Shown here piece after piece: positions 1 to 16,123 of a stretch of 36,150 nt of DNA. Numbering within the stretch: position 1 is the stretch's first letter; the number at the start of each line of letters is the position of its first letter. The notes below the pieces were generated by a model. That model saw only the letters and a program-made list of their open reading frames with translations, made no database searches and was not told the origin of the DNA. The translations under genes and the position numbers were made by a program. The stretch is from Anaerolineales bacterium. GTDB lineage: Bacteria; Chloroflexota; Anaerolineae; Anaerolineales; Villigracilaceae. Location: assembly GCA_919902735.1 (NCBI GenBank), contig CAKKRM010000023.1, forward strand, positions 1-36,150. Reading direction: 5' to 3'.

Positions 1-55
1 CCTACTTTACTCGAAAAGCCCTACTTTTTTAGTTTATCTTTGGCGAAGGTATTGA

Positions 56-496
56 AGAGAAAAAGTATTTATTATCGATCAGCTGTGGTCAACAGCTGAA
101 ACAGAATTATTGCCACTTCTCGAAAAAGATGAAGCAGTTGATGCAATGACTGACCTTCGGATTTTGAACGAGTGGTTTGACCTAGGTGAAAAAGAAGCCA
201 CCCTCAAAAAGGCTATCAAAGATGCCGAAGCCGACCTGGATTCAAAAGCCTACGCCCTTTACCCGAAACTGACCGAAGCCGAGATCAAGACCTTGGTTGT
301 GGACGACAAATGGTTCGCCGCGTTGGATGTCGCTATTCACGGCGAAATGGAGCGTGTGAGCCAGAACCTGACCCAACGTGTGAAGGAACTCACCGAACGC
401 TACGAAACACCAATGCCGCAGATGAACAGCCGTGTGGATGACTTGGAAACCAAAGTGAACCGCCACCTTGAAAAGATGGGGTTCTCATGGAAGTGA
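56..496 (+). pseudogene. hsdM: C-terminal fragment of type I restriction-modification methyltransferase subunit HsdM
   Basis: HsdM is the adenine methyltransferase subunit of type I systems and forms the M2S modification complex with HsdS. Only the helical C-terminus that contacts HsdS is visible. The stretches LLPLLEKDEAVDAMTDLR, LNEWFDLGEKEATLKKA and YPKLTEAEIKTLVVDDKWF are typical of HsdM tails. The frame is open from about base 56, but a TGA at 53-55 lies in the same frame, and the translation before roughly base 70 does not look like HsdM. The SAM-binding and NPPY regions are absent. The nearest possible start is a TTG at 110 without a convincing ribosome binding site. The stop overlaps the hsdS start by 10 bases, the normal hsdM-hsdS arrangement. 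Either the gene is truncated by an upstream rearrangement, or the first bases are a sequence-end artefact. The family call is firm; the broken state is less certain. Confidence 0.65.
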
Positions 497-1776
497 AGGC
501 GGGATACAAGCAAACTGAGGTTGGAATAATTCCAGAAGATTGGGATGTTACTCCTCTTGGCCATCAATTACGAAGAATACCAACCTATGGGATAAATGCA
601 GCCGCTATCCCTTTTGATTTTCGTTTTCCAACTTACCTGCGTATTACTGACATTACTGAAGATGGTCGTTTTGCTGAAGCCACTAAAACCTCAGTTGACC
701 ATCCAACATCAGCATCGTATTTACTTGAACATGGCGATCTTGTTTTTGCACGAACTGGAGCAAGTGTTGGAAAATCTTATCTATATAAATCAACAGATGG
801 CCAGTTGGTTTTTGCTGGATTTCTCATCCGAGTAAGTCCAGATACAAAACGTTTAGCACCTGCATTTCTCAAGTTTTTTGTTCAGAGCCGTACTTATTGG
901 AATTGGATCAAAACCAATTCAATGCGAAGTGGACAACCTGGAATTAACGGACGAGAATTTGCTTCACTCCCTGTCCCAATTCCTCCCACACTCGCCGAAC
1001 AGGAAGCCATCGCCGAAGCATTGAGTGATGCGGATGCCCTCATCGAAGCGCTGGAGCAACTCCTTGCCAAAAAACGTCAGGTCAAGCAAGGGGCGATGCA
1101 GGAATTGCTCACGGGAAAGAGACGATTGGCTGGGTTTAATGAAAAGTGGGAAGTGAAGACCTTTGGCGATTTATTCAATTTCAGTGGTGGTTTCACAGCC
1201 TCACGTGACCAACTCTCTTCAAATGGATATTGTTATTTGCATTATGGTGATATTCACATGTCCACAAAAACCTTTGTAGATGTGCATGCCGAATTTCAAG
1301 ATATCCCAAAACTCAATATTCCCTTGAAAAAAGTTTCTACAACTTCATTGTTGGAAGATGGTGACATTGTATTTGTGGACGCTTCCGAAGACGACGAAGG
1401 CGCAAGCAGGCATGTAGTAATTTTCAATCCAAATAAAATCCCATATATCTCAGGATTGCATACAATAGTTGCCAAAAGTAAAACAGACGAGTTGGAACAT
1501 CAATATCGGCGTTATTGCTTTCAAACCCGTGAAGTGAAAAATCAGTTTCGTTTCTATGCAGTAGGAACCAAGGTTTCAGGTATCAGTAAAACTAATATAG
1601 CCAAAATAAATTTGCCTGTTCCGTCCATTGCCGAACAAACCGCTATCGCCGAAATCCTGAGCGACATGGATGCTGAAATATCCGCGCTGGAAGAGAAACT
1701 GGTCAAGGCACGGCAGGTCAAGGCGGGGATGATGTCCAAGCTGCTGACGGGTAAAATTCGTCTTAACCATGATTAG
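487..1776 (+). CDS. hsdS: Type I restriction-modification specificity subunit HsdS
   Basis: HsdS recognises the bipartite DNA target and holds HsdM and HsdR in the complex. The 429-residue protein has the usual two-fold layout. Target recognition domain 1 spans about residues 18-165, beginning with TEVGIIPEDWDV. A conserved helical spacer runs about 169-215 (LAEQEAIAEALSDADALIE, then ELLTGKRRL). Target recognition domain 2 spans about 220-375, and a second conserved helix about 381-425 (IAEQTAIAEILSDMDAEI, then KLLTGKIRL). The two helices are clear internal repeats, as expected. The ATG lies inside the hsdM tail and gives a 10-base overlap, so translation is probably coupled. The recognition domains are more AT-rich than the helical spacers, in keeping with domain exchange. 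Right after the stop lies a second, diverged copy of the last 40 codons. Confidence 0.95.
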   Translation: MEVKAGYKQTEVGIIPEDWDVTPLGHQLRRIPTYGINAAAIPFDFRFPTYLRITDITEDGRFAEATKTSVDHPTSASYLLEHGDLVFARTGASVGKSYLYKSTDGQLVFAGFLIRVSPDTKRLAPAFLKFFVQSRTYWNWIKTNSMRSGQPGINGREFASLPVPIPPTLAEQEAIAEALSDADALIEALEQLLAKKRQVKQGAMQELLTGKRRLAGFNEKWEVKTFGDLFNFSGGFTASRDQLSSNGYCYLHYGDIHMSTKTFVDVHAEFQDIPKLNIPLKKVSTTSLLEDGDIVFVDASEDDEGASRHVVIFNPNKIPYISGLHTIVAKSKTDELEHQYRRYCFQTREVKNQFRFYAVGTKVSGISKTNIAKINLPVPSIAEQTAIAEILSDMDAEISALEEKLVKARQVKAGMMSKLLTGKIRLNHD

Positions 1777-1794: not shown

Positions 1795-1917
1795 ATGATT
1801 TCAAAGAGCGACATGGATGGCGAAGTCACCGCGCTGGGAGGGAAACTGTCCAAGGGGCAGGAGGTCAAGGCGGGGATGATGTCCGTGTTGCTGACGGGTC
1901 GGGTCAGGTTGGTGTGA
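1795..1917 (+). pseudogene. Orphan duplicate of the hsdS 3' end
   Basis: This is an open frame of 40 codons starting 18 bases after the hsdS stop. Its translation (SDMDGEVTALGGKLSKGQ, then EVKAGMMSVLLTGRVRLV) matches the end of the preceding HsdS (SDMDAEISALEEKLVKARQ, then VKAGMMSKLLTGKIRLNHD). Nothing of a recognition domain precedes it. It is best read as the remnant of a second hsdS, or of a recombination event between repeated hsdS ends, rather than a working gene. The divergence is moderate and the frame is still open, so the event need not be very old. There is no clear ribosome binding site. Confidence 0.75.
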
Positions 1918-2004
1918 CAATTTATAGAAAATCGTCACTTATGAGATGAGGGATGTCCGCTTTACAATGGCAGGAAATACGTCCAGCCGAGATTGGGAAA
2001 TGCT

Positions 2005-4347
2005 ATGTCCACAAAAGATCGCAAACCTGCATGGAAGAAATCAGCTGCGAAAAAGACAGCGAAGGAACAAGTCAGCGCAAAACCAGCCGTTGAAAATAAA
2101 CAAGCGGAAGCCGAGCCAGTCAAGTCCGCGGCAGCTGAGCCTGCCGAAAATAGTAGTGTCAAAGTTTCCGAAACCAAGCCTCAGACAGAAAAAATTCCCA
2201 TAAAAATATTTGGCTACGATATAAAAAAATTGGGGGTTGCAAGTTTGCTCATTGCTTTCCTCGGTGCATTGCCATCAATTATTGGAGTTGTAGCTGATTC
2301 AATAAGCATTTTTGATCGCATGTCCGCGCTGCCTACCCCAACTTTTGGGTATATTTTTGTTGTCCCGCCCACCACGCAGCCGCAAAACAACCCGTCGAAT
2401 AATCCCTCGTCTCCATCTGCTTCTGATCCAAATGCACCAGTAGTTGTAGCACAAGATCTACCGCTCTACGAATTCCGCGGCAACGAATTTACTGTAGAGC
2501 AGGTTCAGTGTATGACGCCCACGGTCATTCCTGTCAGCGGCGCGTACAATGTCGCCTTCTTCCCTGGCGGGCAGACCTTGGCAGTCCAAGTTGGAGACGG
2601 CGAATCACAGATCGGAATATGGGATCTTCAAAAAAATAGTTTGCAAGGGTCGTTGACCTCTGGAATCCTCCTGACACAATCTCCGTATGGACCTCTCTAC
2701 CTTGTCTATGATTATGATGAAACCTACGTGTTCCTCGCCAAAGACGGCAGTACGATCTACACCGTCCCGAATGAGAATGATGAACAACCTTACGGTTTTG
2801 CCGTCTCACACGATGGGCGCAAAATGGCATTCGGCTACGAAAACGGCAATGTCATTGTTTGGGATATCACCACAGGCGAAAGCTTCACCTTGTTTGGGTC
2901 TTCGTTTATCGTCTCCAATATCGTCTTCTCTAATGATGATAGTCTGATCGCGACAGGGACAGATCAAGCCCCATTTTATATTTGGGATGCTGTCACTCAT
3001 TCCATGAAAACTAAAATTGACGTCTCATCATCGTATTCCTTTGCCTTCTCGCCCAATGGTCAGGCTGTTATTTACCGCGCTTACACAAAAGATGCATCGG
3101 CTCAATATATATATTCCTATGACCTTGAAAGTGGAGAGACAACCCAATTGGTCGGCTCGTCTGAAATTTGGTACAACGAAGAGAGCGTGCGGGCTTTCTA
3201 CTCGGCAGATCAAAGGGTTCTCGTCAACGGCGTTGCATTCTGGAAAACCCCTGAAAATACCGCCCTTCGCAATTTAAAAGATCATGCGGGACAGCCAGGT
3301 TATATGGTCACAGGGTCATTTGAAGGCGATAAACTGATTTCTGCATCTATTGATGAAATCATTGTATGGGATCTGACCTGTTCAAAAGTTACCCTGCCCC
3401 AACAAACTGTCCAAGCCCAGTTTGAGCCAATCACAAAGAATAACCTCAACCGCCTCCAAATAGCCCAAACATTTGAAGATGCGGAACTCGGTCCCTTTGC
3501 ATCAAAAAGTGACCGCTTCGTAATGGGTAAAAAAGTCTATTCTTTGAATACCATGAAGCCCGTGGCAGATTTCACCAATGATGTTAATTTTAGATATTCT
3601 GGAACAGGGGTGGATATTTCTCCAGACGGGAAATATCTCGTATCGTGGGATTATGAAAATGTGTTGAACGTCTGGGATATTGACAACGTATTTTTATTGC
3701 CAGACGTGGAAGGTTGCAGCTATTATTCCATCTTTTTGCCCGATGGGCGTCTACTAGCGATCAATGTCAAAGACCAGATCTGTGTCTGGGACGACCTGAA
3801 CGCTCCGCCAAAAATGAGCGAGTTTCAGGAAGGCTACGGCACTCCTATTACACCTATGGAGGAGACTGGCTACAGCGACATCGTTATCCTGCCTTCGGGA
3901 ACTTATCAGGTGGCACGCAATTACAACGACGAGGGAAAGTACGCTCTAGCTGATCTTTTTGCTGGTAACCCGACCCCAAAATATATTTTCCCCGAATCCT
4001 TTACCTGGGAAGTCTTTTCGCCCAAAGGCACATTTTTAGCAGGTAACTGCAGCAAAATCTATGCCACATGTATTTATCGAGTAGCCAGCCAGTCCCTTCT
4101 CTTTAGCTTTGAAGACCCTGTCTCACCCTATGCATTTTCTGCTGATGAAGAATTATTTGCTATCTATATTTATTCTGATAATCAGAATAAGATCCAAGTC
4201 TACGATACAGACACCTGGCAGCTACAAACTGAAATAGATCCTCCTGTAAATTACTCAGTAGATACACTTCGTTTCTCTCCAGATGGACACTATCTTGCCG
4301 TTGGCGAAATCAGCAAAACCTGGTTTTGGTCTGTGGATGGAAAATAA
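2005..4347 (+). CDS. Membrane-anchored WD40-like beta-propeller protein
   Basis: No specific function is recognised. The 780-residue protein starts with a charged, Lys/Ala/Glu-rich segment (1-65), then one hydrophobic segment at about 76-98 (LGVASLLIAFLGALPSIIGV), then a Pro/Asn/Ser-rich linker (120-145). The rest is a long repeat region with WD40-type signatures: GIWDLQKN, IVWDITTGE, YIWDAVTH, IVWDLTCS, NVWDIDNV, CVWDDLNA and a closing FWSVDG. The likely topology is a cytoplasmic N-terminus and an external propeller, or the reverse; this is inferred. The ATG at 2005 is preferred over a TTG at 1993. The gene lies between hsdS and the higB toxin, but it has its own spacing and is not obviously co-translated with either. 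It may be defence cargo or an unrelated insertion. Confidence 0.8.
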   Translation: MSTKDRKPAWKKSAAKKTAKEQVSAKPAVENKQAEAEPVKSAAAEPAENSSVKVSETKPQTEKIPIKIFGYDIKKLGVASLLIAFLGALPSIIGVVADSISIFDRMSALPTPTFGYIFVVPPTTQPQNNPSNNPSSPSASDPNAPVVVAQDLPLYEFRGNEFTVEQVQCMTPTVIPVSGAYNVAFFPGGQTLAVQVGDGESQIGIWDLQKNSLQGSLTSGILLTQSPYGPLYLVYDYDETYVFLAKDGSTIYTVPNENDEQPYGFAVSHDGRKMAFGYENGNVIVWDITTGESFTLFGSSFIVSNIVFSNDDSLIATGTDQAPFYIWDAVTHSMKTKIDVSSSYSFAFSPNGQAVIYRAYTKDASAQYIYSYDLESGETTQLVGSSEIWYNEESVRAFYSADQRVLVNGVAFWKTPENTALRNLKDHAGQPGYMVTGSFEGDKLISASIDEIIVWDLTCSKVTLPQQTVQAQFEPITKNNLNRLQIAQTFEDAELGPFASKSDRFVMGKKVYSLNTMKPVADFTNDVNFRYSGTGVDISPDGKYLVSWDYENVLNVWDIDNVFLLPDVEGCSYYSIFLPDGRLLAINVKDQICVWDDLNAPPKMSEFQEGYGTPITPMEETGYSDIVILPSGTYQVARNYNDEGKYALADLFAGNPTPKYIFPESFTWEVFSPKGTFLAGNCSKIYATCIYRVASQSLLFSFEDPVSPYAFSADEELFAIYIYSDNQNKIQVYDTDTWQLQTEIDPPVNYSVDTLRFSPDGHYLAVGEISKTWFWSVDGK

Positions 4348-4372
4348 CTACGGCAAATAAAGTTGGGAGCAA

Positions 4373-4429
4373 GGGAATTCCCGAAAAAGGAATGAAAATC
4401 CTTGTAAAATTCCCAAAATGGGATAAAAT
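4373..4429 (+). promoter_or_regulatory. Promoter and operator-like palindromes before higB
   Basis: A -35-like TTGTAA (4402-4407) and a -10-like TAAAAT (4424-4429) are separated by 16 bases. A perfect palindrome GGGAATTCCC lies at 4373-4382, and a TCCC-N5-GGGA inverted repeat (4411-4423) lies inside the promoter spacer. This fits autoregulation by a HigA-type antitoxin, which is known for the family but only inferred here. The -10 ends five bases before the higB ATG, so transcription would begin at or next to the start codon. Confidence 0.5.
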
Positions 4430-4434
4430 ACGAA

Positions 4435-4728
4435 ATGCGCCTGATCTCACGAAAAAAACTAATCGAATTCTGGACTAAATATGTCGACTCTGAGGAACAG
4501 CTCAAAGCATGGGCATGGGAAGTTGAACATGCCGACTGGAAAACTCCCAGCGACGTCAAAGCCCGTTATGGCACAGCCGATATTCTCAAGAATGATCGGG
4601 TCGTGTTCAACATCAAAGGCAACCATTACAGGCTGGTTGTGAAAATCCAATACAATATTCAAATTGTCTTTATACGTTTTGTTGGCACGCACAAGCAGTA
4701 TGAAAAAATAGATGCGGAGAAAATCTGA
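4435..4728 (+). CDS. higB: HigB-family type II toxin (mRNA interferase)
   Basis: HigB toxins are RelE-fold, ribosome-dependent mRNA endonucleases neutralised by a HigA antitoxin. The 97-residue length and the conserved order match the HigB family: MRLISRKKLIEFW at the start, DWKTPSDVKARYG in the middle, then ILKNDRVVFNIKGNHYRL and IVFIRFVGTHKQYEKID. The gene has no visible Shine-Dalgarno sequence, and a promoter -10 lies immediately upstream, so the mRNA may be leaderless. Its TGA overlaps the next ATG by one base (TGATG). The toxin-first order is typical of higBA loci. Confidence 0.9.
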   Translation: MRLISRKKLIEFWTKYVDSEEQLKAWAWEVEHADWKTPSDVKARYGTADILKNDRVVFNIKGNHYRLVVKIQYNIQIVFIRFVGTHKQYEKIDAEKI

Positions 4729-5933
4729 TGAAGCCGAAAGTAATAAAAACCGAAGCCGATTATGAAATGGCTCTGGCTCATCTCGAATCCCTCATGGATG
4801 CCGAACCAGGCTCCCCACAAGAAGAAGAACTGGAACTTTTCGCGGTACTCATTGAAAACTATGAGCGCGAATCCTTTCCCATTGGATTGCCCGATCCCAT
4901 CGAGGCGATCAAGTTCCGCATGGAACAACAGAAGCTCACCCGAAAAGATTTGGAACAATACATAGGCAGCCAGAGCAAAGTTTCCGAGGTGCTGAATCGC
5001 AAACGTCCGCTCAGCATTGGTATGATCCGTGCTTTGCATCAGGGATTGGGGATCCCTGCAGAGGTTTTGTTGCAGGAAGAAGGCGCCGAAATAACCGAGC
5101 CAAAGTATGACTTGAAAAAATATCCCTTCACTGAAATGTTCAGTGAGGGCTACTTCAGCTTTTTCAATGGAACTTTGCAGGAGGCTAAAGAAGCCAAGGA
5201 AGAATTACTCACGCGGCTCTTTTCTGCCTTTCAAGGTCTGACCTTTGAAAGAGCGCTTCCCCGTGCCTCCTCCAAGGAGAGAATGGATGAATTTGCTTTT
5301 GAAGCCTGGCAGGCTCGAGCGCTTGTCCTCGCAGAAGAACAGGAGTTACCGCCTTACACTCCAGGCGCATTGAACGATGAAGACATAAAGTATCTTGTTC
5401 GCCTTAGCGCCTTCGATGAAGGTCCGCTGCTGGCGCAGGAATATCTGCAAAAACGAGGCATCCCCCTGGTGGTTCTAAAAAGTTTGAAACATACCTATCT
5501 GGATGGCGCATGTTTCAACTCTCCCTCTGGGCGTCCAGTTGTCGGCATGACATTGCGCTACGATCGTATGGATAATTTCTGGTTCACTCTGCTTCACGAA
5601 TTAGGTCATGTGTGCCTTCACCTCGATCAAAACAACTTTGCGTTTTTTGATGAAACAGAATCGAAAAAAGGTAAAAAAGAATCTCGTGATCCAAAAGAAA
5701 TAGAGGCGGATGGTTTCGCTACGAAATTTCTTATTCCAGAGGAAGCGTGGAAGCCTTGGAGAAAAGCGAATGCGAAATTGGTCAGTAAGGATGAAATTCG
5801 AATCTTCGCTGATCAACTAGGCATCTCCCCATCCATTGTTGCAGGGCGTTTGCGCTGGGAAACGGGTGATTATGTGAAATATTCGGTTATGCTTGGCAAC
5901 AATACTGTCAAGAAACTGTTCCATCAAAATTAA
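4728..5933 (+). CDS. higA: HigA-like antitoxin fused to ImmA/IrrE metallopeptidase
   Basis: The protein has 401 residues, about three to four times a normal HigA. The first ~115 residues resemble HigA: an acidic helical start, then a helix-turn-helix region (KLTRKDLEQYIGSQSKVSEV, then LNRKRPLSIGMIRAL). The C-terminal half carries the ImmA/IrrE zinc-peptidase signature H290-ELG-H294 (LLHELGHVCLHL) followed by EIEADGFATKFLIPEEAW, which supplies the third metal ligand region. ImmA/IrrE proteins cleave repressors or antitoxins in response to stress or mobile-element signals. Here the peptidase is in the same chain as the antitoxin, next to the toxin, so it could control antitoxin stability; that is inference. 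A one-base overlap with higB implies coupled translation. Confidence 0.88.
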   Translation: MKPKVIKTEADYEMALAHLESLMDAEPGSPQEEELELFAVLIENYERESFPIGLPDPIEAIKFRMEQQKLTRKDLEQYIGSQSKVSEVLNRKRPLSIGMIRALHQGLGIPAEVLLQEEGAEITEPKYDLKKYPFTEMFSEGYFSFFNGTLQEAKEAKEELLTRLFSAFQGLTFERALPRASSKERMDEFAFEAWQARALVLAEEQELPPYTPGALNDEDIKYLVRLSAFDEGPLLAQEYLQKRGIPLVVLKSLKHTYLDGACFNSPSGRPVVGMTLRYDRMDNFWFTLLHELGHVCLHLDQNNFAFFDETESKKGKKESRDPKEIEADGFATKFLIPEEAWKPWRKANAKLVSKDEIRIFADQLGISPSIVAGRLRWETGDYVKYSVMLGNNTVKKLFHQN

Positions 5934-5977
5934 CGTCTCTGCGATAAATTTCCAACAACCAGGAGGATTCGCCTGAT

Positions 5978-7924
5978 ATGAAAATTTCTACCATCCTCGA
6001 CCATATCGACAATGGTCATATGGCTCTCCCCGAATTTCAGCGCGGCTACGTCTGGAACCGCGATCAGGTGCGTGGTCTATTTGATTCTCTATATAAACGT
6101 CATCCCGTGGGCGGTCTGTTGGTTTGGGCAACTGAGTCCAAAACCGCTGCCCATCGTGGCGACGGTCAACTCGCGCCTGGTGTTGTCAAACTTCTGCTTG
6201 ATGGTCAACAACGCATGACCTCCCTTTACGGTGTAGTACGTGGAAAGCCGCCACTGTTCTTTGATGGAGACGAAAAGGCTTTTGCAGGTCTACGTTTCCA
6301 TTTGGGAACTGAAACCTTTTCCTTTTACCAACAACTCAAAATGAAGGATGATCCGCTCTGGGTGGATGTCACCGAATTGATGCAAAAAGGCAATGTTGGG
6401 CTGGGTGAATTTGTCACCCGTCTAAACGCCACTCCTGAGCTGGCTGCCAACATGGGACTCTACGTCGCCCGCCTTGGTCATCTGCTTGGCATTACTGAAA
6501 AAGAATTTCACATCGAAGAAGTTACGGGCAGCGAAAAAACTCTCGACATTGTGGTGGATATCTTCAACCGCGTCAACAGTGGTGGAACAAAGTTGTCCAA
6601 AGGCGATCTTGCACTTGCAAAAATTTGTGCCGAGTGGCCAGAAGCCCGTACCGAGATGAAAACGAAACTCAAGGAATGGAATGCCGCGGGCTATAGCTTC
6701 AACCTCGATTGGTTGTTACGCTCTGTCAATACCGTACTGACTGGTGAAGCAAAATTTTTATACCTGCACGACAAAAGCGCAGAAGAAGTACAGGATGGAC
6801 TTACCCGCGCCATTAAACACATTGACACCAGCCTCAATATGATCAGCGGGCGGTTAGGTCTGGATCATGACCGTGTCTTCTTTGGTCGCTTCGGTGTGCC
6901 TGTCATGGTACGTTACCTCGATAAACACAAAGGTTCCTTGAGCGAAAAGGAACGCGACAAACTCCTCTTCTGGTTTGCCCAGTCAGGCATGTGGGGGCGT
7001 TTCTCTGGTTCTACTGAGTCATACATAGATCAAGATCTGGCTGCACTGGAAGGTGAGGATGGGGGGCTGGATAAGTTGCTTGAACAATTGCGCCTTTGGC
7101 ATGGCGGATTGCGCGTGGAGGCTGGGCATTTTACTGGCTGGAGTTTGGGCGCGCGCTTCTACCCCGTCCTATACCTGCTCACCCGCATGGGCAATGCCCG
7201 CGATTGGGGCACGGGGCTTCCACTCAAAGCCTCCTTGCTTGGAAAAATGAGTCGCCTCGAAGTTCATCATATCTTCGCTAAAGCGCAACTTTACAAACGG
7301 AATTTTGGACGGATGGAAGTCAATGCGCTTGCCAACTTTTGTTTCCTGACAAAAGATACAAATCTCGATATCAGTGACCGTCTGCCCGAGGAATATTTTG
7401 AGGAAATCGAAAATAATCACCCTGGAGCCCTGGCTTCCCAGTGGATTCCTGTAGACCGTAATCTGTGGAAGATGGAGAATTTTCGCGACTTTCTCGAAGC
7501 CCGCAAGGAGCTGCTTGCGACCGAAGTAAATCTGCGCATGGAAGAACTCTTGCATGGTGACACCCGCTGGCTGTCAGGTCCGACCGCGGCGATCACTGCT
7601 GAAACTGCAATTGGCAGTGGCATCACCACTGCCGAGGAAGAACAACAACTTGACGCCTTGAATGCCTGGGTGGAGTCGCAAGGTTTACCCAGCGGCTTGC
7701 TCGCCTATGACTTTTCTGACCCTGAAACAGGCGAACAAAAAGCGGTCTTCGATCTGGCATGGCCCAATGGCATTCAGGAGGAACTCAGTCAGCCCGTTGC
7801 CATCCTTATTGACGAAAGCGCCGAAGTCCTCGCTCTTGCGAATCAGGCAGGCTTCCGTTGCTTCACGAAGGAAAAAGAATTCCGCCAGTACGTCAAGAAG
7901 GAAATCCTATCTGGGGATAGCTAA
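5978..7924 (+). CDS. DUF262 domain protein with C-terminal HNH-like motif (GmrSD-type nuclease)
   Basis: DUF262 (GmrS-like, ParB-fold NTPase) proteins with an HNH/DUF1524 part act in modification-dependent restriction and other anti-phage systems. Here DUF262 is at the N-terminus: LPEFQRGYVW at 17-26 and LLDGQQRMTSLYG at 73-85, with DGQQR at 75-79. FNRVNSGGTKLSKGDLALAK is the typical second motif. Around residues 428-470 there is an HNH-like block, LEVHHIFAKAQLY (H430, H431) then ALANFCFLTKDTN. The last ~90 residues (from about ALNAWVESQGLPSG) form a separate domain not recognised with confidence. An AGGAGG at 5961-5966 precedes the ATG. The stop is two bases before hsdR, so the two nucleases are co-expressed. 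The substrate is unknown. Confidence 0.88.
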   Translation: MKISTILDHIDNGHMALPEFQRGYVWNRDQVRGLFDSLYKRHPVGGLLVWATESKTAAHRGDGQLAPGVVKLLLDGQQRMTSLYGVVRGKPPLFFDGDEKAFAGLRFHLGTETFSFYQQLKMKDDPLWVDVTELMQKGNVGLGEFVTRLNATPELAANMGLYVARLGHLLGITEKEFHIEEVTGSEKTLDIVVDIFNRVNSGGTKLSKGDLALAKICAEWPEARTEMKTKLKEWNAAGYSFNLDWLLRSVNTVLTGEAKFLYLHDKSAEEVQDGLTRAIKHIDTSLNMISGRLGLDHDRVFFGRFGVPVMVRYLDKHKGSLSEKERDKLLFWFAQSGMWGRFSGSTESYIDQDLAALEGEDGGLDKLLEQLRLWHGGLRVEAGHFTGWSLGARFYPVLYLLTRMGNARDWGTGLPLKASLLGKMSRLEVHHIFAKAQLYKRNFGRMEVNALANFCFLTKDTNLDISDRLPEEYFEEIENNHPGALASQWIPVDRNLWKMENFRDFLEARKELLATEVNLRMEELLHGDTRWLSGPTAAITAETAIGSGITTAEEEQQLDALNAWVESQGLPSGLLAYDFSDPETGEQKAVFDLAWPNGIQEELSQPVAILIDESAEVLALANQAGFRCFTKEKEFRQYVKKEILSGDS

Positions 7925-7926
7925 CC

Positions 7927-10900
7927 ATGAACATTGGCAGACCTGAACGCGAAACGCAGGATCGAGTCATTGCTCTTTTTCATAAAGAGTTAAATTACCG
8001 TTACCTCGGTGATTGGACTGACCGCGAAAATAGCAATATCGTAGAGGGTCTGCTGACAGATTGGCTGACCAAAAGCGGGTACTCCACTGCGCAAATCAAT
8101 CGGGCATTGGACATCCTGCGTCGTGAAGCCAATAATCACAACCGAACGCTTTACGGCAACAATCAGGCAGTCTATAAACTTTTGCGTTATGGTGTGCCCG
8201 TCAAGATTGAAGCGGGTAAAGTCACAGAAACCGTCCATCTCATAAACTGGAATGAGCGGTTGGAGAATGATTTTGCCATCGCCGAGGAAGTTACCCTCAA
8301 AGGGAATCACGAGCGCCGCCCCGATATTGTCCTGTATGTGAACGGTATTGCGGTTGGTGTACTGGAATTGAAGAATAGCCGCGTTAGTATCGGCGATGGC
8401 ATCCGCCAAAATCTCTCCAATCAACAGCCTGAATTCAATCAGTGGTTCTTCAGCACCATCCAATTCATCTTCGCGGGCAATGACAGCGAAGGGCTGCAAT
8501 ACGGGACCATCGGCACCGAGGAGAAATATTTTCTCAAGTGGAAGGAAGATGAAGAGGACAATACCCGCTTCAAGCTGGATAAATACCTGCTCAAACTCTG
8601 CGAGAAGAATCGCCTGATCGAATTGATCCATGACTTCATCCTCTTCGACGGTGGAGTCAAAAAACTTCCGCGCACTCATCAATATTTTGGCATCAAAGCT
8701 GCGCAGGAGCATATCCACGGGAGGAAGGGTGGCATTATCTGGCATACACAAGGTAGCGGTAAAAGTATCGTCATGGTCTTGCTTGCCAAATGGATACTGG
8801 AGAATAACCCCAACGCCCGCGTCGCCATCATCACCGACCGCGATGAGTTGGATAAGCAGATTGAACGCGTCTTCACTGAGGCAGGTGAAACCATCAAGCG
8901 CACTAGTAGCGGGCGCGACCTGATGAGGCAGCTGGGTCAGGCAACGCCACGTCTGCTATGTTCACTTATCCATAAATTCGGTCGTAAGGGCGTGGACGAT
9001 TTTGAAGGTTTTATCAAAGAGTTGGAAAACCAACCGAGCAAAGCGTTTGGCGAAGTCTTTGTCTTTGTAGATGAATGTCATCGTACACAGAGCGGTAAAC
9101 TTCGTCGCACGATGAAAGCGATGATGCCCAATGCGGTTTTCATTGGCTTTACTGGTACTCCGCTGTTGAAGCAGGACAAGGAAACCACACTGGAAGTGTT
9201 TGGAAATTATATCCATACATACAAGTTTAGTGAAGGCGTGGAGGATGGTGTTGTGCTCGATCTCGTCTATGAAGCACGAGATATTGATCAGAAACTCGGC
9301 TCGAAGGACAAAATTGATGCCTGGTTCGACGCCAAAACGAAGGGTTTGAATGACTGGCAGAAAGATGAACTCAAAAAGCAGTGGGGAACGATGCAAAACG
9401 TGCTCAGCTCCAGATCTCGCATGGATCGGGTAGTGAGTGATATTGTCTTTGACTTCAGTGTCAAACCGCGCCTGTCTATTGAACGAGGTAATGCCATCCT
9501 GGTGGCTTCGAGCATCTTCGAAGCCTGCAAGTATTTCACGCTATTTCAGAAGACGCCATTCAGGGATAAGTGCGCGGTCGTAACTTCTTACAACCCATTG
9601 GCTCGGGATGTCACATTGGAGGAGACGGGTGCAAACACCGAGACCGACAAGCAGTTCATCTACAACACCTATACGGAACTATTGAAGAATGTCGAAGCCA
9701 AGCCGAATATGTCCAAGACTGAAACCTATGAGGAATGGGCGAAGAATCTCTTTACCAAAGAACCCAACAACATGAAGTTGTTGGTGGTCGTTGATAAGTT
9801 GCTCACTGGCTTCGATGCACCGCCTTGCACCTATCTCTATATTGACAAATCTATGCAGGATCATGGTCTTTTCCAGGCGATTTGCCGTGTCAACCGTCTG
9901 GATGGCGAGGACAAGGACTTTGGTTATATTGTGGATTACAAAGACTTGTTCAAAAAAGTCGAGAATGCCATTGCAGTGTACACTTCCGAACTGGATCATA
10001 GTTCTGGTGGTGCGGATCCCGATATATTATTGCAGGATCGTTTGAAGAAGGGGAGGGAACGCCTTGAAAATGCAATGGAAGCGATTGCCCTGCTTTGCGA
10101 ACCCGTTGAGCCACCGCGAGGCGAATTGGAATACATCCATTACTTTTGCGGTAATACCGAAATTCCATCCGATCTCAAGGAACGTGAACCACAGCGTGTC
10201 TCGTTCTATAAGGCAACTGTTTCTCTTATTCGCGCTTATGCCAATATCGCCGACGAACTCGAACCTGCCGGCTACACTGCTGTGGATATTGCACGCATCA
10301 AACAAAAACTCGACGATTATCTGAATTTGCGAGAGATCATTCGCAAAGCCAGCGGCGAAACTCTTGACTTGAAACCCTATGAAGCCGATATGCGGCATTT
10401 GATCGACACTTACATCGAAGCCGACGAACCGCGTAAAATCTCTCCCTTTGATACTCTTAGTCTCCTTGAGTTGATCGTAAAGACTGGAATAGCGAACACC
10501 ATTACCTCACAGCTCGGCAGTTTGAAAGGTAATAAGACTGCTATTGCTGAAACCATTGAGAATAATGTGCGTAGTAAGATCATCAAAGAGCATCTGAACG
10601 ACCCGGCATTCTACGCAAGAATGTCTACTCTTCTGGATGAGGTCATCGCAGCACGCAAAGCACGCGCTATTGAGTATGAACAATATCTCAAGAGTATTGG
10701 TGAAGTAGCCATTCAGGTAGAAGCTGGTCGCTCTGACGAAACCCCAAAACAATTGAACACTCCTGGCAAACGTGCTGTGTACAATAACCTGAAGAAACCA
10801 TCGGATAACCAGATTGCTGATGCTGCGGGTCTATACCTTGTTGACGACGATCCGGCTCTAAAACTTGCTCTGGAAATTGATACTGCCATCAAGCGGTCCC

Positions 10901-11028
10901 GCCCCGATGATTGGCGTGGCACACAAGCTCGTGAGCAGGTAATCAAAGCAGCTTTATTCGAAATTCTCAAGGATACGGATGAAGTTGAGCGTATTTTCAA
11001 GATTATTTATCAGCAAAACGAGTATTAA
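7927..11028 (+). CDS. hsdR: Type I restriction enzyme endonuclease/translocase subunit HsdR
   Basis: HsdR provides ATP-driven DNA translocation and cleavage for the type I complex. The 1033-residue protein has the standard order. The N-terminal PD-(D/E)xK nuclease has D133 (RRPDIVLY) and E147-L-K149 (GVLELKNS). The superfamily 2 helicase core has Walker A at 275-280 (HTQGSGKS), a DEAD-box-like VDECHR at 381-386 and motif III-like GFTGTP around 407-412. LTGFDAPP and AICRVNRL supply the later helicase motifs. The helical C-terminal region that docks on the methyltransferase follows. The length is normal and no disruption is seen. The gene is separated from hsdS by about 6 kb of cargo and overlaps the following peptidase gene by one base (TAATG). 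Confidence 0.96.
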   Translation: MNIGRPERETQDRVIALFHKELNYRYLGDWTDRENSNIVEGLLTDWLTKSGYSTAQINRALDILRREANNHNRTLYGNNQAVYKLLRYGVPVKIEAGKVTETVHLINWNERLENDFAIAEEVTLKGNHERRPDIVLYVNGIAVGVLELKNSRVSIGDGIRQNLSNQQPEFNQWFFSTIQFIFAGNDSEGLQYGTIGTEEKYFLKWKEDEEDNTRFKLDKYLLKLCEKNRLIELIHDFILFDGGVKKLPRTHQYFGIKAAQEHIHGRKGGIIWHTQGSGKSIVMVLLAKWILENNPNARVAIITDRDELDKQIERVFTEAGETIKRTSSGRDLMRQLGQATPRLLCSLIHKFGRKGVDDFEGFIKELENQPSKAFGEVFVFVDECHRTQSGKLRRTMKAMMPNAVFIGFTGTPLLKQDKETTLEVFGNYIHTYKFSEGVEDGVVLDLVYEARDIDQKLGSKDKIDAWFDAKTKGLNDWQKDELKKQWGTMQNVLSSRSRMDRVVSDIVFDFSVKPRLSIERGNAILVASSIFEACKYFTLFQKTPFRDKCAVVTSYNPLARDVTLEETGANTETDKQFIYNTYTELLKNVEAKPNMSKTETYEEWAKNLFTKEPNNMKLLVVVDKLLTGFDAPPCTYLYIDKSMQDHGLFQAICRVNRLDGEDKDFGYIVDYKDLFKKVENAIAVYTSELDHSSGGADPDILLQDRLKKGRERLENAMEAIALLCEPVEPPRGELEYIHYFCGNTEIPSDLKEREPQRVSFYKATVSLIRAYANIADELEPAGYTAVDIARIKQKLDDYLNLREIIRKASGETLDLKPYEADMRHLIDTYIEADEPRKISPFDTLSLLELIVKTGIANTITSQLGSLKGNKTAIAETIENNVRSKIIKEHLNDPAFYARMSTLLDEVIAARKARAIEYEQYLKSIGEVAIQVEAGRSDETPKQLNTPGKRAVYNNLKKPSDNQIADAAGLYLVDDDPALKLALEIDTAIKRSRPDDWRGTQAREQVIKAALFEILKDTDEVERIFKIIYQQNEY

Positions 11029-11744
11029 TGACTACACAGATCGAAGTCGGCGGTATTCTGGTGGATATTATTTTCAAGGAGATCAAGAACGTCCATCTGA
11101 GTGTTCACCCTCCTACAGGCAGGGTGCGTATTTCTGCACCCAAACGAATGAAACTTGACACCCTCCGTGTTTTTGCCGTTTCAAAGATTGATTGGATTAA
11201 AAAACATCAAAAAAAACAACTAGGACAGGAGCGCGAGACCCCGCGTGAATATCTTGATCGTGAAAGTCATTACGTCTGGGGACGTCGTTACTTGCTGAAG
11301 ATAAATGAGGCATATCAAGCTCCGTTTGTTGAACTAAAACATAACCAAATGATTCTGACTGTCCGCCCAGGGAGTGGGACCGAAAAAAGGGGGGTGATTG
11401 TCTCCGCTTGGTATCGAGAAGAGGTACGAAAAGCTGCTATGCTGCTTATCGCCAAGTGGGAGGCTATCTTAGGGGTCAAAGCCAACAAGTTCTATGTCCA
11501 GCGAATGAAAACGAAATGGGGGAGTTGTGCCTCGCACACTCGCAACATCCGCCTCAACAGCGATCTCGCTAAAAAACCGCGCGAATGTCTGGAATACATT
11601 GTTGTCCATGAATTGGTTCACCTTCTCGAACCGACTCATAATGCCCGCTTCTACGCACTCATGGATAAATTCATGCCGAATTGGCAATCCCTTAGAGATG
11701 AACTAAATCGTATTCCCTTATCCCATGTGGAGTGGGGATATTGA
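11028..11744 (+). CDS. YgjP/DUF45-type zinc metallopeptidase
   Basis: This is a small M48-like (DUF45, YgjP, SprT-like) putative metallopeptidase of 238 residues. The zinc motif is H194-ELV-H198 (VVHELVHLLEPTHN), with the family block KTKWGSCASHTRNIRLNSDL just before it and FYALMDKFMPNW after it. The N-terminal part (ISAPKRMKLDTLRVFAVSKI) is also typical. Members of this family are often found directly downstream of hsdR, but their substrate is not established. The one-base overlap with hsdR makes it part of the restriction operon. Confidence 0.9.
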   Translation: MTTQIEVGGILVDIIFKEIKNVHLSVHPPTGRVRISAPKRMKLDTLRVFAVSKIDWIKKHQKKQLGQERETPREYLDRESHYVWGRRYLLKINEAYQAPFVELKHNQMILTVRPGSGTEKRGVIVSAWYREEVRKAAMLLIAKWEAILGVKANKFYVQRMKTKWGSCASHTRNIRLNSDLAKKPRECLEYIVVHELVHLLEPTHNARFYALMDKFMPNWQSLRDELNRIPLSHVEWGY

Positions 11745-12074: not shown

Positions 12075-13394
12075 ATGCACATTTACTGCCTCGGTCTCAA
12101 TCACAACACCACACCCATTGAACTTCGTGAGCAATTCTCGCTAAGCGAGGATGCGATCCGTTCTGCGCTGGCCCGCCTGGCATGCGGACATCTCGCCACA
12201 TCCATCGCTGAACTGGTCATCATATCCACCTGCAATCGTACCGAACTCTACGCTGCCTCCAGTCACATGGCAATTGCCGAACTGGAGGCTTTTTTGTCGG
12301 ATGCGAGCGGCGTACCCGCGAAGCAGTTCAGCGCCCATGCCTATCGATACGAAGATCTCGATGTCGCCGGCCACCTTTTTGAGGTTGCGGCAGGGTTGGA
12401 TTCTCTCGTCATCGGCGAACCGCAGATTTTAGGGCAGATCGTCCGCGCGCTGGAACTTTCCCGTGGACAAAATATGGCGGGGCCTGTGCTCAATCGTCTC
12501 TTTCAATCTGCCATCCATGCAGGGAAGCGCGCCCGCACTGAAACGGGTATCAGCCGTAACCCTGTTTCGGTGTCATCGCTTGCCGCGTCGCTGGCGGAGC
12601 GAGTCGTTCATCCCATTGCCGAAGCACAGGTGGTCATCCTCGGCGCAGGTGAGATGGCAGAGTTGGCAGTAGAAGCGTTGCGAAAACGTGGTGCGCAAAA
12701 ATTCCTCGTTGTCAATCGCACCCTCGAACGCGCCCATGATATTGCCGACCGTTGGGGTGCGCAGATCACAACTTTTGAAAATCTCAATTCGGCTCTACAC
12801 TCTGCCGATATTTTGATTTCATCCACAGGTGCACCACACACGATCCTGTCGGCTGACATGGTCAAACATGCCATGCAAGCACGCGCGCAACGTCCGCTGG
12901 TGCTGATCGACATTGCTGTGCCACGCGACATCGACCCCGATGTATCAAAAATTCCCCACGTCAAATTGTATGACATCGATCACCTGAATGAAAAACTCGA
13001 AGGTGCGCTTGCCGAACGCATGGCAGAAGTGCCGCAAGTTAAATCCATTCTCGATGAAGAGATCAAAGAGTTTTCTGAATACATGAAATCACTGGAGATG
13101 ATTCCGATTATCTCCGATATTCGCCAACAAGCTGAGGGTATCCGCAAGGAAATGCTCGAAAAAACATTGCGCCGACTACCCGACCTGACCGATGCCGAAC
13201 GCGCTCGTATCGAAGCCATGACCCAGGCGCTGGTCAAACAAATTTTGCACGCTCCCACCAACCGTTTGCGCGCCGAAGCGTCGTGTCCTCATGCGCCCGA
13301 ATATGCCGCCGTCGCTCGTACTTTGTTTGGTCTGCAAAGCGAAGGCTTGTGCGGCTTCTCAGGTCAAGCCTGCCCCATCTCTGCCACAGATTAG
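12075..13394 (+). CDS. hemA: Glutamyl-tRNA reductase HemA (GtrR)
   Basis: The enzyme reduces glutamyl-tRNA to glutamate-1-semialdehyde with NADPH, the first committed step of the C5 pathway. The sequence shows the N-terminal catalytic domain with CLGLNHNTTPIELRE and the nucleophile C53 in IISTCNRTELY. A Rossmann segment (VVILGAGEMAELAVEAL) follows, then a long dimerisation helix. At 439 residues the length is normal, with a Cys-rich tail (C404, C426, C433), two of these in Cys-Pro dipeptides. It is the first gene of the haem operon and is preceded by a strong inverted repeat. hemC starts six bases after its stop without a clear ribosome binding site. Confidence 0.97.
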   Translation: MHIYCLGLNHNTTPIELREQFSLSEDAIRSALARLACGHLATSIAELVIISTCNRTELYAASSHMAIAELEAFLSDASGVPAKQFSAHAYRYEDLDVAGHLFEVAAGLDSLVIGEPQILGQIVRALELSRGQNMAGPVLNRLFQSAIHAGKRARTETGISRNPVSVSSLAASLAERVVHPIAEAQVVILGAGEMAELAVEALRKRGAQKFLVVNRTLERAHDIADRWGAQITTFENLNSALHSADILISSTGAPHTILSADMVKHAMQARAQRPLVLIDIAVPRDIDPDVSKIPHVKLYDIDHLNEKLEGALAERMAEVPQVKSILDEEIKEFSEYMKSLEMIPIISDIRQQAEGIRKEMLEKTLRRLPDLTDAERARIEAMTQALVKQILHAPTNRLRAEASCPHAPEYAAVARTLFGLQSEGLCGFSGQACPISATD

Positions 13395-13400
13395 GTACTC

Positions 13401-14321
13401 ATGAAATTGATTTTTGCCACTCGTCCTTCAAAACTCGCCCGCTGGCAAACCCAATGGGTTATCAATGCTTTGCAAACGGTTCATCCAAATCTCGAGTGTG
13501 AAGAAAAAATCATCACCACGCAGGGCGATAAAATTTTAGATAAACCTCTGCCTGAGATCGGCGGCAAGGGACTCTTCACACAAGAACTCGAATCCGAACT
13601 GCTCAACTGGGATGTCCACTGTGCGGTTCACTCGCTCAAAGACCTGCCCGTTGAATACCCTGCTGGATTAACAGTCGGATGTATCCCCGCCCGCGCCGAA
13701 GTGCGTGACGCGCTGATCTCTGCCAACGGATACACCCTCGCCACCCTTCCAAACGGCGCGTCAGTCGGGACCTCAAGCCTGCGTCGTGCTGCCCAGATCC
13801 TTTCCCTCCGCCCAGACATTAAGACCCAATCCCTGCGCGGCAACGTGGACACACGCCTGCGCAAAGCATTGGACGGTCAATACGATGCGATCATTCTTGC
13901 TGGTGCAGGGTTGACCCGCCTCGGCTTGGATAGTCACGTCACCGAATGGCTTTCACTCGACGTCATGCTCCCCGCGCCTGGGCAAGGCGCTCTCGCGATC
14001 CAATGCCGTGCGGACGATGAAGTAACGCTCACACTGCTTTCTAAACTCGAAGATCAAGCCACCCGCAAAGCAGTCACGGCGGAACGGGCTTTTTTGCAAG
14101 GATTAGGTGGTGGGTGTGCCGTGCCTGTGGCAGCGTATGCAACAAACAGTGACCAGTCATCAGTGATCAGTCTGATGGGATTGGTGATTTCAGAAGATGG
14201 AAAGAAGGTTGTGAAAGTCGCAGATGAAGGAACGGACGCGCTTGTACTTGGCAACGAACTTGCACAAAAGGCAATTAACAATGGTGCAGACCAAATCCTT
14301 AAACTGATCACTGTCCATTGA
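13401..14321 (+). CDS. hemC: Porphobilinogen deaminase / hydroxymethylbilane synthase HemC
   Basis: The enzyme condenses four porphobilinogen molecules to hydroxymethylbilane. The sequence has ATRPSKLARWQTQWV at the start, GKGLFTQELE, VHSLKDLPVEYP and GTSSLRRAAQ. The dipyrromethane cofactor site is C239 in LGGGCAVPVAAYA. The length of 306 residues is normal. Two 7-bp repeat arrays affect it. One (14148-14175) encodes part of a loop in the last domain (NSDQSSVISL). The other covers its last codons and stop. The gene sits 6 bases after hemA and 12 before hemD. Confidence 0.97.
   Translation: MKLIFATRPSKLARWQTQWVINALQTVHPNLECEEKIITTQGDKILDKPLPEIGGKGLFTQELESELLNWDVHCAVHSLKDLPVEYPAGLTVGCIPARAEVRDALISANGYTLATLPNGASVGTSSLRRAAQILSLRPDIKTQSLRGNVDTRLRKALDGQYDAIILAGAGLTRLGLDSHVTEWLSLDVMLPAPGQGALAIQCRADDEVTLTLLSKLEDQATRKAVTAERAFLQGLGGGCAVPVAAYATNSDQSSVISLMGLVISEDGKKVVKVADEGTDALVLGNELAQKAINNGADQILKLITVH
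14148..14175 (+). repeat. 7-bp tandem array inside hemC
   Basis: Four consecutive 7-bp units, AGTGACC, AGTCATC, AGTGATC and AGTCTGA, share AGT at the same position. They encode the variable loop NSDQSSVIS in the C-terminal domain of HemC. The open frame is kept. Confidence 0.6.
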
Positions 14322-14331
14322 TAACTGGTTC
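14304..14331 (+). repeat. 7-bp tandem array across the hemC stop and up to hemD
   Basis: The units CTGATCA, CTGTCCA, TTGATAA and CTGGTTC follow with 7-bp periodicity. The array includes the last HemC codons and the TGA stop (14319-14321), and ends two bases before the hemD ATG. It occupies the place of a ribosome binding site, and none is visible for hemD. Confidence 0.6.
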
Positions 14332-14333
14332 TT

Positions 14334-15080
14334 ATGAAAGTCCTCATCACCCGCCCCCGCACTAAAGCCGATGAATTTGCAGAAAAGCTGCGTTCTGCGG
14401 GCTTCGAACCGATCTTTTTTCCAGTCATCGAAATCCAACGGATTGGAAATAATGTTGCACTGGAACGCGCTCTTGAGAAATTGAACTGCTATGAGTGGGT
14501 CGTGTTCACATCGGTCAATGCCGTGGACATTGTGTTTGACGAGTATTCCGTATTCTTATTGAAAGAGAACACAGGCGTGAAGTTCGCCGCTATTGGACCA
14601 AAAACCGCCGAGGCATTACGGAAATACAGCATCGAACCAGACTTTGTCCCCGAGGAATATGTTGCAGAAGCCATTTTGCCTGGCTTGGGTGATCTGCAAG
14701 GTAAGTGGGTCCTGCTCCCACGCGCTGAGATCGCCCGTCAGATGCTGCCTGAAGCGATTGCCAATGCAGGTGGTATTGCACACGAGATCATTGTTTATCA
14801 AACCTTGCCCGCTCAAGTTGATGAAGATGGATTGAGCGCATTGAAGTCAGGTGTGGACGTGATCACCTTCACCAGCGCGTCAACTGTCGAGAATTTTGTG
14901 GCAGTTACTCGTCAGCATAACCTTGATCCCTTGAACTTGCCGAATAACCCGCTCGTTGCCTGTATTGGTCCCATCACAGAACAGGCGGCGAAAGAAGCGG
15001 GATTTCAAAATCTCGTTGTTGCAAAAGAATACACAACGGATGGATTGATCGAAGCGATTACCAATATGGAGAGACTATGA
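14334..15080 (+). CDS. hemD: Uroporphyrinogen-III synthase HemD
   Basis: The enzyme cyclises hydroxymethylbilane with inversion of ring D to uroporphyrinogen III. This family is poorly conserved. Support comes from the start [20 protein letters not shown], then [38 protein letters not shown], a [16 protein letters not shown] segment, [15 protein letters not shown] and [16 protein letters not shown]. The 248-residue length fits, and the position between hemC and hemB strengthens the call. The last codons overlap the hemB ATG (ATGA). Confidence 0.94.
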
Positions 15081-16123
15081 CTCTGCTTGAACCTAAAACT
15101 CGCCAATTACCAATTACTAATTACCAATCTCTAATTACCCGCCCCCGCCGCTTGCGTGCCAACCCCGCCATCCGCGCGATGGTACGGGAGACGGAACTCA
15201 ACGCGCGTGATTTCATCTATCCGCTCTTCGTGCGGCATGGAACGGGACGAACTGCCATCGGCTCGATGCCTGGCGTGTATCAACTGTCCGTGGCGGAAGC
15301 CGTTCGAGAAGCAGAAACAGCCGCAAAGTCAGGGGTGAGCGCTGTCATCCTGTTTGGAATACCAAAAGAAAAAGATCCGATCGGGCTGGAGAATTTTGCA
15401 GAAGATGGAATTGTCCAGCAGGCGATTCGCGCGATCAAGAAGGAAATCCCAGAGATGGTTGTGGTGACGGATGTGTGCCTGTGCGAATACACGGACCACG
15501 GACATTGCGGCATTTTGAACACGGGCGAGCATTTTCATACAGGTTTGCCTGAGGGATATGTGTTGAACGACCCGACGTTGGATGTGCTGGCGAAAGTGGC
15601 GATCTCACATGCCGAGTGTGGTGCAGATATTGTTGCGCCAAGCGGCATGATGGATGGCATGGTAACGGCGATCCGTGAAGGGTTGGATGGTGCTGGGTAT
15701 GAGAGCCTGCCGATCCTGTCGTATGCCGTGAAATACGCATCGTCGTTCTATGGTCCGTTCCGCGACGCGGCAGAAGGCGCGCCAAAGTTCGGCGATAGAA
15801 AATCTCACCAAATGGATCCTGCCAATGTGCGTGAAGCCTTGCGTGAAGCCGCCCTGGATGTGGAAGAAGGCGCGGACATGTTAATGGTGAAACCTGCGCT
15901 GGCGTATCTCGATGTCATTCGCGTGGTGAAGGATGCGTATCCTGAATTGCCGATGGCGGCATACAACGTCAGCGGCGAGTATTCGATGATCAAAGCCGCC
16001 GCCGCGAATGGCTGGATGGATGAAGCGAAGGTCACGCTCGAAACGCTCACATCCATCAAACGTGCAGGCGCAGATGTCATTATCACTTACCATGCCGTAG
16101 ATGCGGCGAAGTGGTTGAAATAA
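15077..16123 (+). CDS. hemB: Delta-aminolevulinic acid dehydratase / porphobilinogen synthase HemB
   Basis: The enzyme condenses two 5-aminolevulinates to porphobilinogen. The active-site lysines are K219 ([18 protein letters not shown]) and K272 ([11 protein letters not shown]). C134, C136 and C144 ([14 protein letters not shown]) mark the zinc-dependent type. The length is 348 residues. The first ~22 residues are odd: residues 10-22 ([13 protein letters not shown]) are encoded by a 7-bp repeat array, and the recognisable family sequence begins at [15 protein letters not shown]. The ATG used overlaps the hemD stop, so the extension is probably translated. A start further in cannot be excluded, but no in-frame ATG occurs before M35. 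Confidence 0.96.
15104..15138 (+). repeat. 7-bp tandem array inside the hemB 5' end
   Basis: Five units, CAATTAC, CAATTAC, TAATTAC, CAATCTC and TAATTAC, encode the peptide ITNYQSLIT (residues 13-21). The same core in the same phase is found inside ccmA (30355-30382). Confidence 0.75.

Follow-up and report, generated by a model that had tools for sequence, protein, structure and literature searches.

Among the described systems closest to the locus analysed here, the RRDM island of enteropathogenic Escherichia coli has the gene order RptR - hsdM - hsdS - DarTG2 - hsdR - M48 peptidase, and its authors regard the hsdS-hsdR site as a potential recombination hotspot (PMC12255303). In VPI-2 of Vibrio cholerae the GmrSD-like TgvAB is embedded in a type I operon, and its proposed target is complementary DNA; the same paper equates HEC-05 with BrxU (PMC11411939). 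In PD-lambda-2, component B is toxic when overexpressed and component A rescues, while component C is required for defence against lambda-vir (PMC9519451). Here we describe a type I restriction-modification (RM) locus of an Anaerolineales bacterium (Chloroflexota; Villigracilaceae) that occupies the first 11,744 positions of a stretch of 36,150 nt, referred to below as the window, which is one whole contig (CAKKRM010000023.1; C23) of a 356-contig draft genome (GCA_919902735.1). Between its hsdS and hsdR genes lie a WD40 protein, a two-gene unit (HigB and a fusion of HigA with an M78 peptidase) and a predicted type IV restriction enzyme of the GmrSD type. We consider it probable that these are independent modules in a reloadable slot between hsdS and hsdR, which we find a better reading than a single layered system. 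The features of the locus are the following:

1-54, minus strand: terminal repeat of a multicopy insertion sequence (IS)-like element (inverted repeat CAATACCTTCGCCAA at 40-54, then the duplicated target AAGAG)
55-496, plus strand: 3' part of hsdM, separated from the 5' part by the element (PADLOC MTase_I PDLC03027, positions 689-810)
487-1776, plus strand: hsdS, intact (Methylase_S 1.2e-27, in two stretches; Specificity_I 7e-91)
1804-1917, plus strand: extra partial hsdS 3' end (scar) between hsdS and the WD40 gene (nhmmer E-value 3.5e-31 and model match 8.1e-30, from a profile and a sequence model of the hsdS tail that included this copy among their rows)
1993-4347, plus strand: WD40 beta-propeller protein with a single N-terminal hydrophobic segment (WD40-type Pfam matches)
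4373-4434, plus strand: conserved, predicted promoter/operator of higB (-35-like TTGTAA at 4402, palindrome TCCCAAAATGGGA at 4411, -10-like TAAAAT at 4424)
4435-4728, plus strand: HigB-like protein, relative of PD-Lambda-2_A (PF09907 2.8e-32; PDLC03979 8.5e-42; solved HigB 5ycl_B 7e-8)
4728-5933, plus strand: HigA-like fusion of a helix-turn-helix (HTH) domain and an M78 (IrrE-type) peptidase, relative of PD-Lambda-2_B (PDLC03982 2e-135; M78 2.5e-11; HTH_3 9.6e-6)
5978-7924, plus strand: GmrSD_N (DUF262) protein of 648 aa with an HNH-like C-terminal motif, predicted type IV restriction enzyme (PF03235 1.6e-25; HEC-05 3.3e-45)
7927-11028, plus strand: hsdR, intact (TIGR00348 1e-154; PDLC03044 1422 bits)
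11028-11744, plus strand: YgjP-type (M48-like) metallopeptidase (PF01863 2e-58)

Exchange of genes in the hsdS-hsdR slot

A preliminary description of this DNA had proposed that the locus is a composite of defence genes, its cargo inserted between hsdS and hsdR. All genes that it named are present at the coordinates given there, all in one direction on the plus strand. It left open whether the order is unique to this genome; it is not. A second Anaerolineales genome (locus L115, JACZJB010000106.1) has the order hsdS remnant-[gene]-hsdS remnant-higB-higA-GmrSD-hsdR, where the contig breaks off after the first codons of hsdR. In L114 an intact hsdM is followed by hsdS, higB, higA, a NucS-like PDC-S02 nuclease, a REase-ARP protein, hsdR and YgjP. 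L245 contains higB and a short higA without the peptidase between hsdS and hsdR (6275-6924 in reverse-complement coordinates), the HTH part of this short HigA being 82% identical to that of the window, and in L243, a second locus of the L115 genome, hsdR is immediately preceded by a 78-aa fragment of HigA. The HigBA pair likewise lies between hsdS and hsdR in an unrelated type I family (L121, L122, L129, L140).

The gene order is thus recurrent and its contents are exchanged: the same slot is occupied in L195 by a protein of 300 aa whose N-terminus carries a hydrophobic segment, by genes on the opposite strand in L196, by a full GmrSD in L197, by a REase-ARP relative in L205 and by different cargo again in L247, and it is empty in L201, L202, L204, L206, L207, L208 and L210. 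Cargo is present in all six loci whose hsdR is at least about 68% identical, vs one of the eight more distant ones (Fisher p 0.005, with the window and L115 counted among the six and kinship not corrected). The YgjP gene lies directly downstream of hsdR in 18 of 18 hsdR relatives retrieved. The WD40 protein was considered as a conserved part of the cargo and rejected, as no homologue was found in related RM loci; within the genus it is matched only by scattered general WD40 proteins, over part of its length and at identities of 42% or less. Directly 3' of the defence locus, the genes hemA, hemC, hemD and hemB of heme biosynthesis (12075-16123, judged from protein sequences) follow, and the GC content of the locus is mostly below theirs.

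Copies of the hsdS tail at cargo boundaries

The partial hsdS 3' end at 1804-1917 is 83% identical over 94 nt to the 3' end of the live hsdS. The array of L115 (2101-7842) comprises seven such copies, at 2101, 2775, 3426, 4196, 5801, 6457 and 7713, each of which separates consecutive genes of the same orientation, as in a gene-cassette array with the hsdS tail as the spacer; two of the genes can be assigned defence-type domains, AbiV in one and a predicted pPIWI-associating nuclease in the other, and the genome carries one ordinary hsdS in addition to the array. In L121 (CANNQP010000021.1; Verrucomicrobiota), a member of the unrelated type I family, a 119-nt copy is 98% identical to the live hsdS (duplicate pair 7432-7550 and 9447-9565). 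This copy marks the boundary of the HEC-01A/B cargo with higB, and its reading frame gives a whole HsdS C-terminus and ends in a stop codon of its own. Fainter traces are a weak second tail copy that overlaps the end of the cargo gene in L195 and a weak 29-nt hsdS-like remnant (86%; nhmmer E-value 1.4e-4) upstream of higB in L057, a locus without RM genes nearby. Across 386 genomes of the class, the sequence model of the tail found no other hsdS-tail array, and most of its matches look like ordinary hsdS ends. An attC-like folding of the copies was considered and rejected, since the DNA folds of five of them gave z values from +0.4 to -2.7 and no consistent structure; lacking a common fold, the tail copies look like homologous direct repeats rather than folded integron sites.

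The simplest reading of these copies suggests that recombination at the hsdS 3' end may load the cargo and leave the old tail as a scar. One such event would import new genes, and probably a new hsdS allele with them, the old hsdS tail would stay behind, and repeated events would build an ordered array of defence genes with hsdS tails between them. That the hsdS 3' end is in general an entry point for defence cargo, at which repeated events build such arrays, we propose tentatively, with rather less than even confidence. If true, a change of restriction specificity and the gain of a defence gene could be one event. In the literature searched, which consisted mostly of titles and abstract openings, we came across no account of hsdS-tail scars at the boundaries of cargo. 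The hsdS-hsdR position has already been proposed as a potential hotspot, with no stated mechanism that we could find, and the hsdS-tail remnants suggest a concrete and testable one. Just after hsdS (1761-1814) there is also a small dispersed repeat, with similar stretches (81-84%) at one place each on contigs C213 and C130.

The HigB/HigA-peptidase pair

As in PD-lambda-2, the gene of component B follows that of component A directly on its 3' side, here with an overlap of 1 nt. The zinc motif HELGH...E of the M78 domain is intact, and its residues H290, E291, H294 and E324 are invariant in eight homologues. We predict that the pair has a promoter of its own with a palindromic operator of the autoregulated type. 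The block upstream of higB, comprising TTGTAA or a similar hexamer, the TCCCAAAATGGGA palindrome and TAAAAT, is kept in the window, L057, L114 and L115, and its core was also found in L116 and L245. Because this region is conserved, also at the L057 copy of higBA with no RM genes nearby, the pair need not depend on an RM promoter. In a tree of 86 HigA-peptidases, the RM-adjacent state (same-strand hsd genes no more than 5 kb away, a rough label owing to short contigs) needs 16 changes, of which no fewer than 11 are forced, so the pair has gained or lost a place next to RM genes on many occasions. Direct repeats of ~110-130 bp flank HigBA-peptidase pairs in L116 (2644-2763 and 4369-4495) and L131 (7742-7854 and 9428-9540), which suggests that these are other cassette-like carriers.

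The close spacing that the preliminary description reported from higB on agrees with the coordinates (from higB to YgjP: overlap of 1 nt, 44 nt, 2 nt, overlap of 1 nt). Its proposal that these genes are expressed with hsdR holds in part: the spacing is close enough for a common transcript, so that the genes from higB onward could be read through into hsdR and YgjP, but higB has its own conserved promoter-like region. The pair most likely acts as an abortive-infection unit of the toxin-antitoxin (TA) kind. The "toxin release" envisaged before follows the usual picture of HigBA; in PD-lambda-2, the relative that has been studied, the toxic component was the peptidase fusion B, and the HigB-like A rescued (PMC9519451).

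The type IV and type I enzymes

The solved DUF262 protein 7p9k, which we take to be BrxU, matches residues 3-244 of the GmrSD-like protein (1e-13). Both LDGQQR and the HNH-like motif HHIF..N..N are conserved across 11 sequences, LDGQQR being invariant, and by family membership type IV restriction of modified DNA is a fair prediction. The L115 relative, 86% identical, is encoded inside a type I locus. We rejected the idea that the protein is, as a general rule, an RM-specific partner, as full-length relatives with 52-56% identity elsewhere in the phylum lie outside type I loci.

HsdR has its nuclease and motor domains (HSDR_N, SWI2_SNF2, T1R_D3) and HsdS its two recognition domains, whereas hsdM is split in the assembly by a multicopy IS-like insertion. 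The 5' part of hsdM lies on contig C293 (325-2343) and covers positions 1-674 of the PDLC03027 model. Bases 1-54 of the window are the end of a repeat that terminates other contigs too, and the inverted repeat CAATACCTTCGCCAA occurs at the ends of both C23 and C293. The pattern was found at nine places in the genome, while a reversed control pattern gave no match. Wherever its position could be checked among the listed places it lies near a contig end, in at least seven cases clearly no more than about 55 bases away. The two hsdM flanks have AAGAG in common, and removal of one copy gives a single open frame; a second pair of element ends (C323/C282) has the exact 5-bp flank TTTGT in common. 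The CAATACCTTCGCCAA ends and the paired 5-bp flanks thus indicate an insertion element with a 5-bp target duplication. HsdM is needed for both methylation and restriction, and since the gene is split, the type I enzyme of this genome has probably lost its activity. On C293, upstream of hsdM, a gene for a tyrosine recombinase (L026, 7815-8729, minus strand) might have a role in rearranging the locus.

Evaluation of alternative readings

If the slot holds independent modules, their most likely roles are separate: abortive infection for the TA-like HigBA-M78 pair, and modified DNA as the target of the GmrSD protein. The layered response put forward in the preliminary description would instead make the locus one integrated system in which type I restriction, GmrSD cleavage of modified DNA and toxin release are co-expressed and functionally coupled, for example with the toxin as a guard of the restriction enzyme in the manner of PrrC. 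The tight spacing from higB to YgjP, the conservation of higBA-GmrSD-hsdR in two genomes and the type I operon of V. cholerae, whose embedded type IV enzyme is proposed to act on complementary DNA (PMC11411939), speak for such a system. Nevertheless, we regard it as quite unlikely: higBA and GmrSD are intact though hsdM is interrupted, so that the pair can persist without the RM enzyme, higBA has retained a promoter region of its own and occurs without nearby RM genes in L057, the full-length GmrSD relatives with 52-56% identity are found outside type I loci, and relatives exchange the cargo (GmrSD vs two nucleases vs others), which is not expected of a single co-evolved three-step mechanism. 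Of the layered response, the composite locus with its cargo between hsdS and hsdR stands; the restriction layer, given the broken hsdM, and the coupling into one mechanism are weakened. The toxin as a guard of HsdM is disfavoured by an intact pair beside a broken hsdM, an argument that does not extend to a guard of HsdR.

Plain defence-island clustering, in which unrelated defence genes accumulated near one another and the hsdS-hsdR position is not special, would agree with the many HigA-M78 pairs of other genomes that do not adjoin RM genes. It appears unlikely in view of the hsdS-tail remnants at cargo boundaries and of the different cargo that fills one and the same slot in six of six closer hsdR relatives vs one of eight distant ones. 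That the HigB/HigA-M78 pair is a complete PD-lambda-2 system sitting here by chance is very improbable, despite its strong PADLOC matches to PD-Lambda-2_A and PD-Lambda-2_B. None of the three library models of PD-Lambda-2_C, the Beta protein (PDLC03983-85), matched any of the eight window proteins tested, and the gene after higA encodes GmrSD_N, not a Beta protein; as a control, the same models do match third genes at other loci, one of which, on inspection, proved to be Pfam Beta_protein. Partners of the Beta type need only three changes in the HigA tree and are confined to two clades. The window HigA falls outside these and, with full support, forms a group of four together with L114, L115 and L057.

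As to loading at the hsdS tail, the loci L129, L140, L122, L123, L114, L196, L197 and L205 have no extra tail copy, so either recombination there is not the sole route or the scars decay. Several observations weigh against the reloadable slot of independent modules that we prefer. The WD40 protein is without a demonstrated link to defence, and the C-terminal domain of the GmrSD-like protein falls short of the Pfam GmrSD_C model. Finally, in a draft of 356 contigs the hsdM insertion could be present in only part of the population, or could result from a join made by the assembly at a repeat, but this is disfavoured because two pairs of flanks have matching 5-bp duplications and one frame is restored.

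Comparison with described systems

Composite type I loci are already known, and the locus described here shows new cargo in a known arrangement. In both the window and the RRDM island, a TA-type module lies between hsdS and hsdR and an M48-type metallopeptidase gene directly follows hsdR. The cargo differs (HigBA-M78, GmrSD and WD40 here, DarTG2 in RRDM), hsdM is broken in the window genome, and no RptR-like small open reading frame (~79 aa) was seen directly upstream of hsdM on C293, as judged from the listing of reading frames, with no profile search for RptR. DUF262 (GmrSD) proteins inside a type I operon are likewise represented by TgvAB and by RloF of Campylobacter jejuni; TgvAB consists of two proteins that are both needed, whereas a single 648-aa protein with an HNH-like C-terminus is encoded here. 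BrxU/HEC-05 resembles that protein by sequence in the N-terminal DUF262 region; the C-terminal half is unmatched by sequence, and the window gene is not embedded in BREX or Hma. With PD-lambda-2 (Vassallo et al. 2022, PMC9519451) the locus has in common a HigB-like A followed by an HTH-M78 B, and it differs in the absence of the third gene and in its separate HigA clade. The locus thus shows a C-less relative of PD-lambda-2 that is found repeatedly in or beside type I operons.

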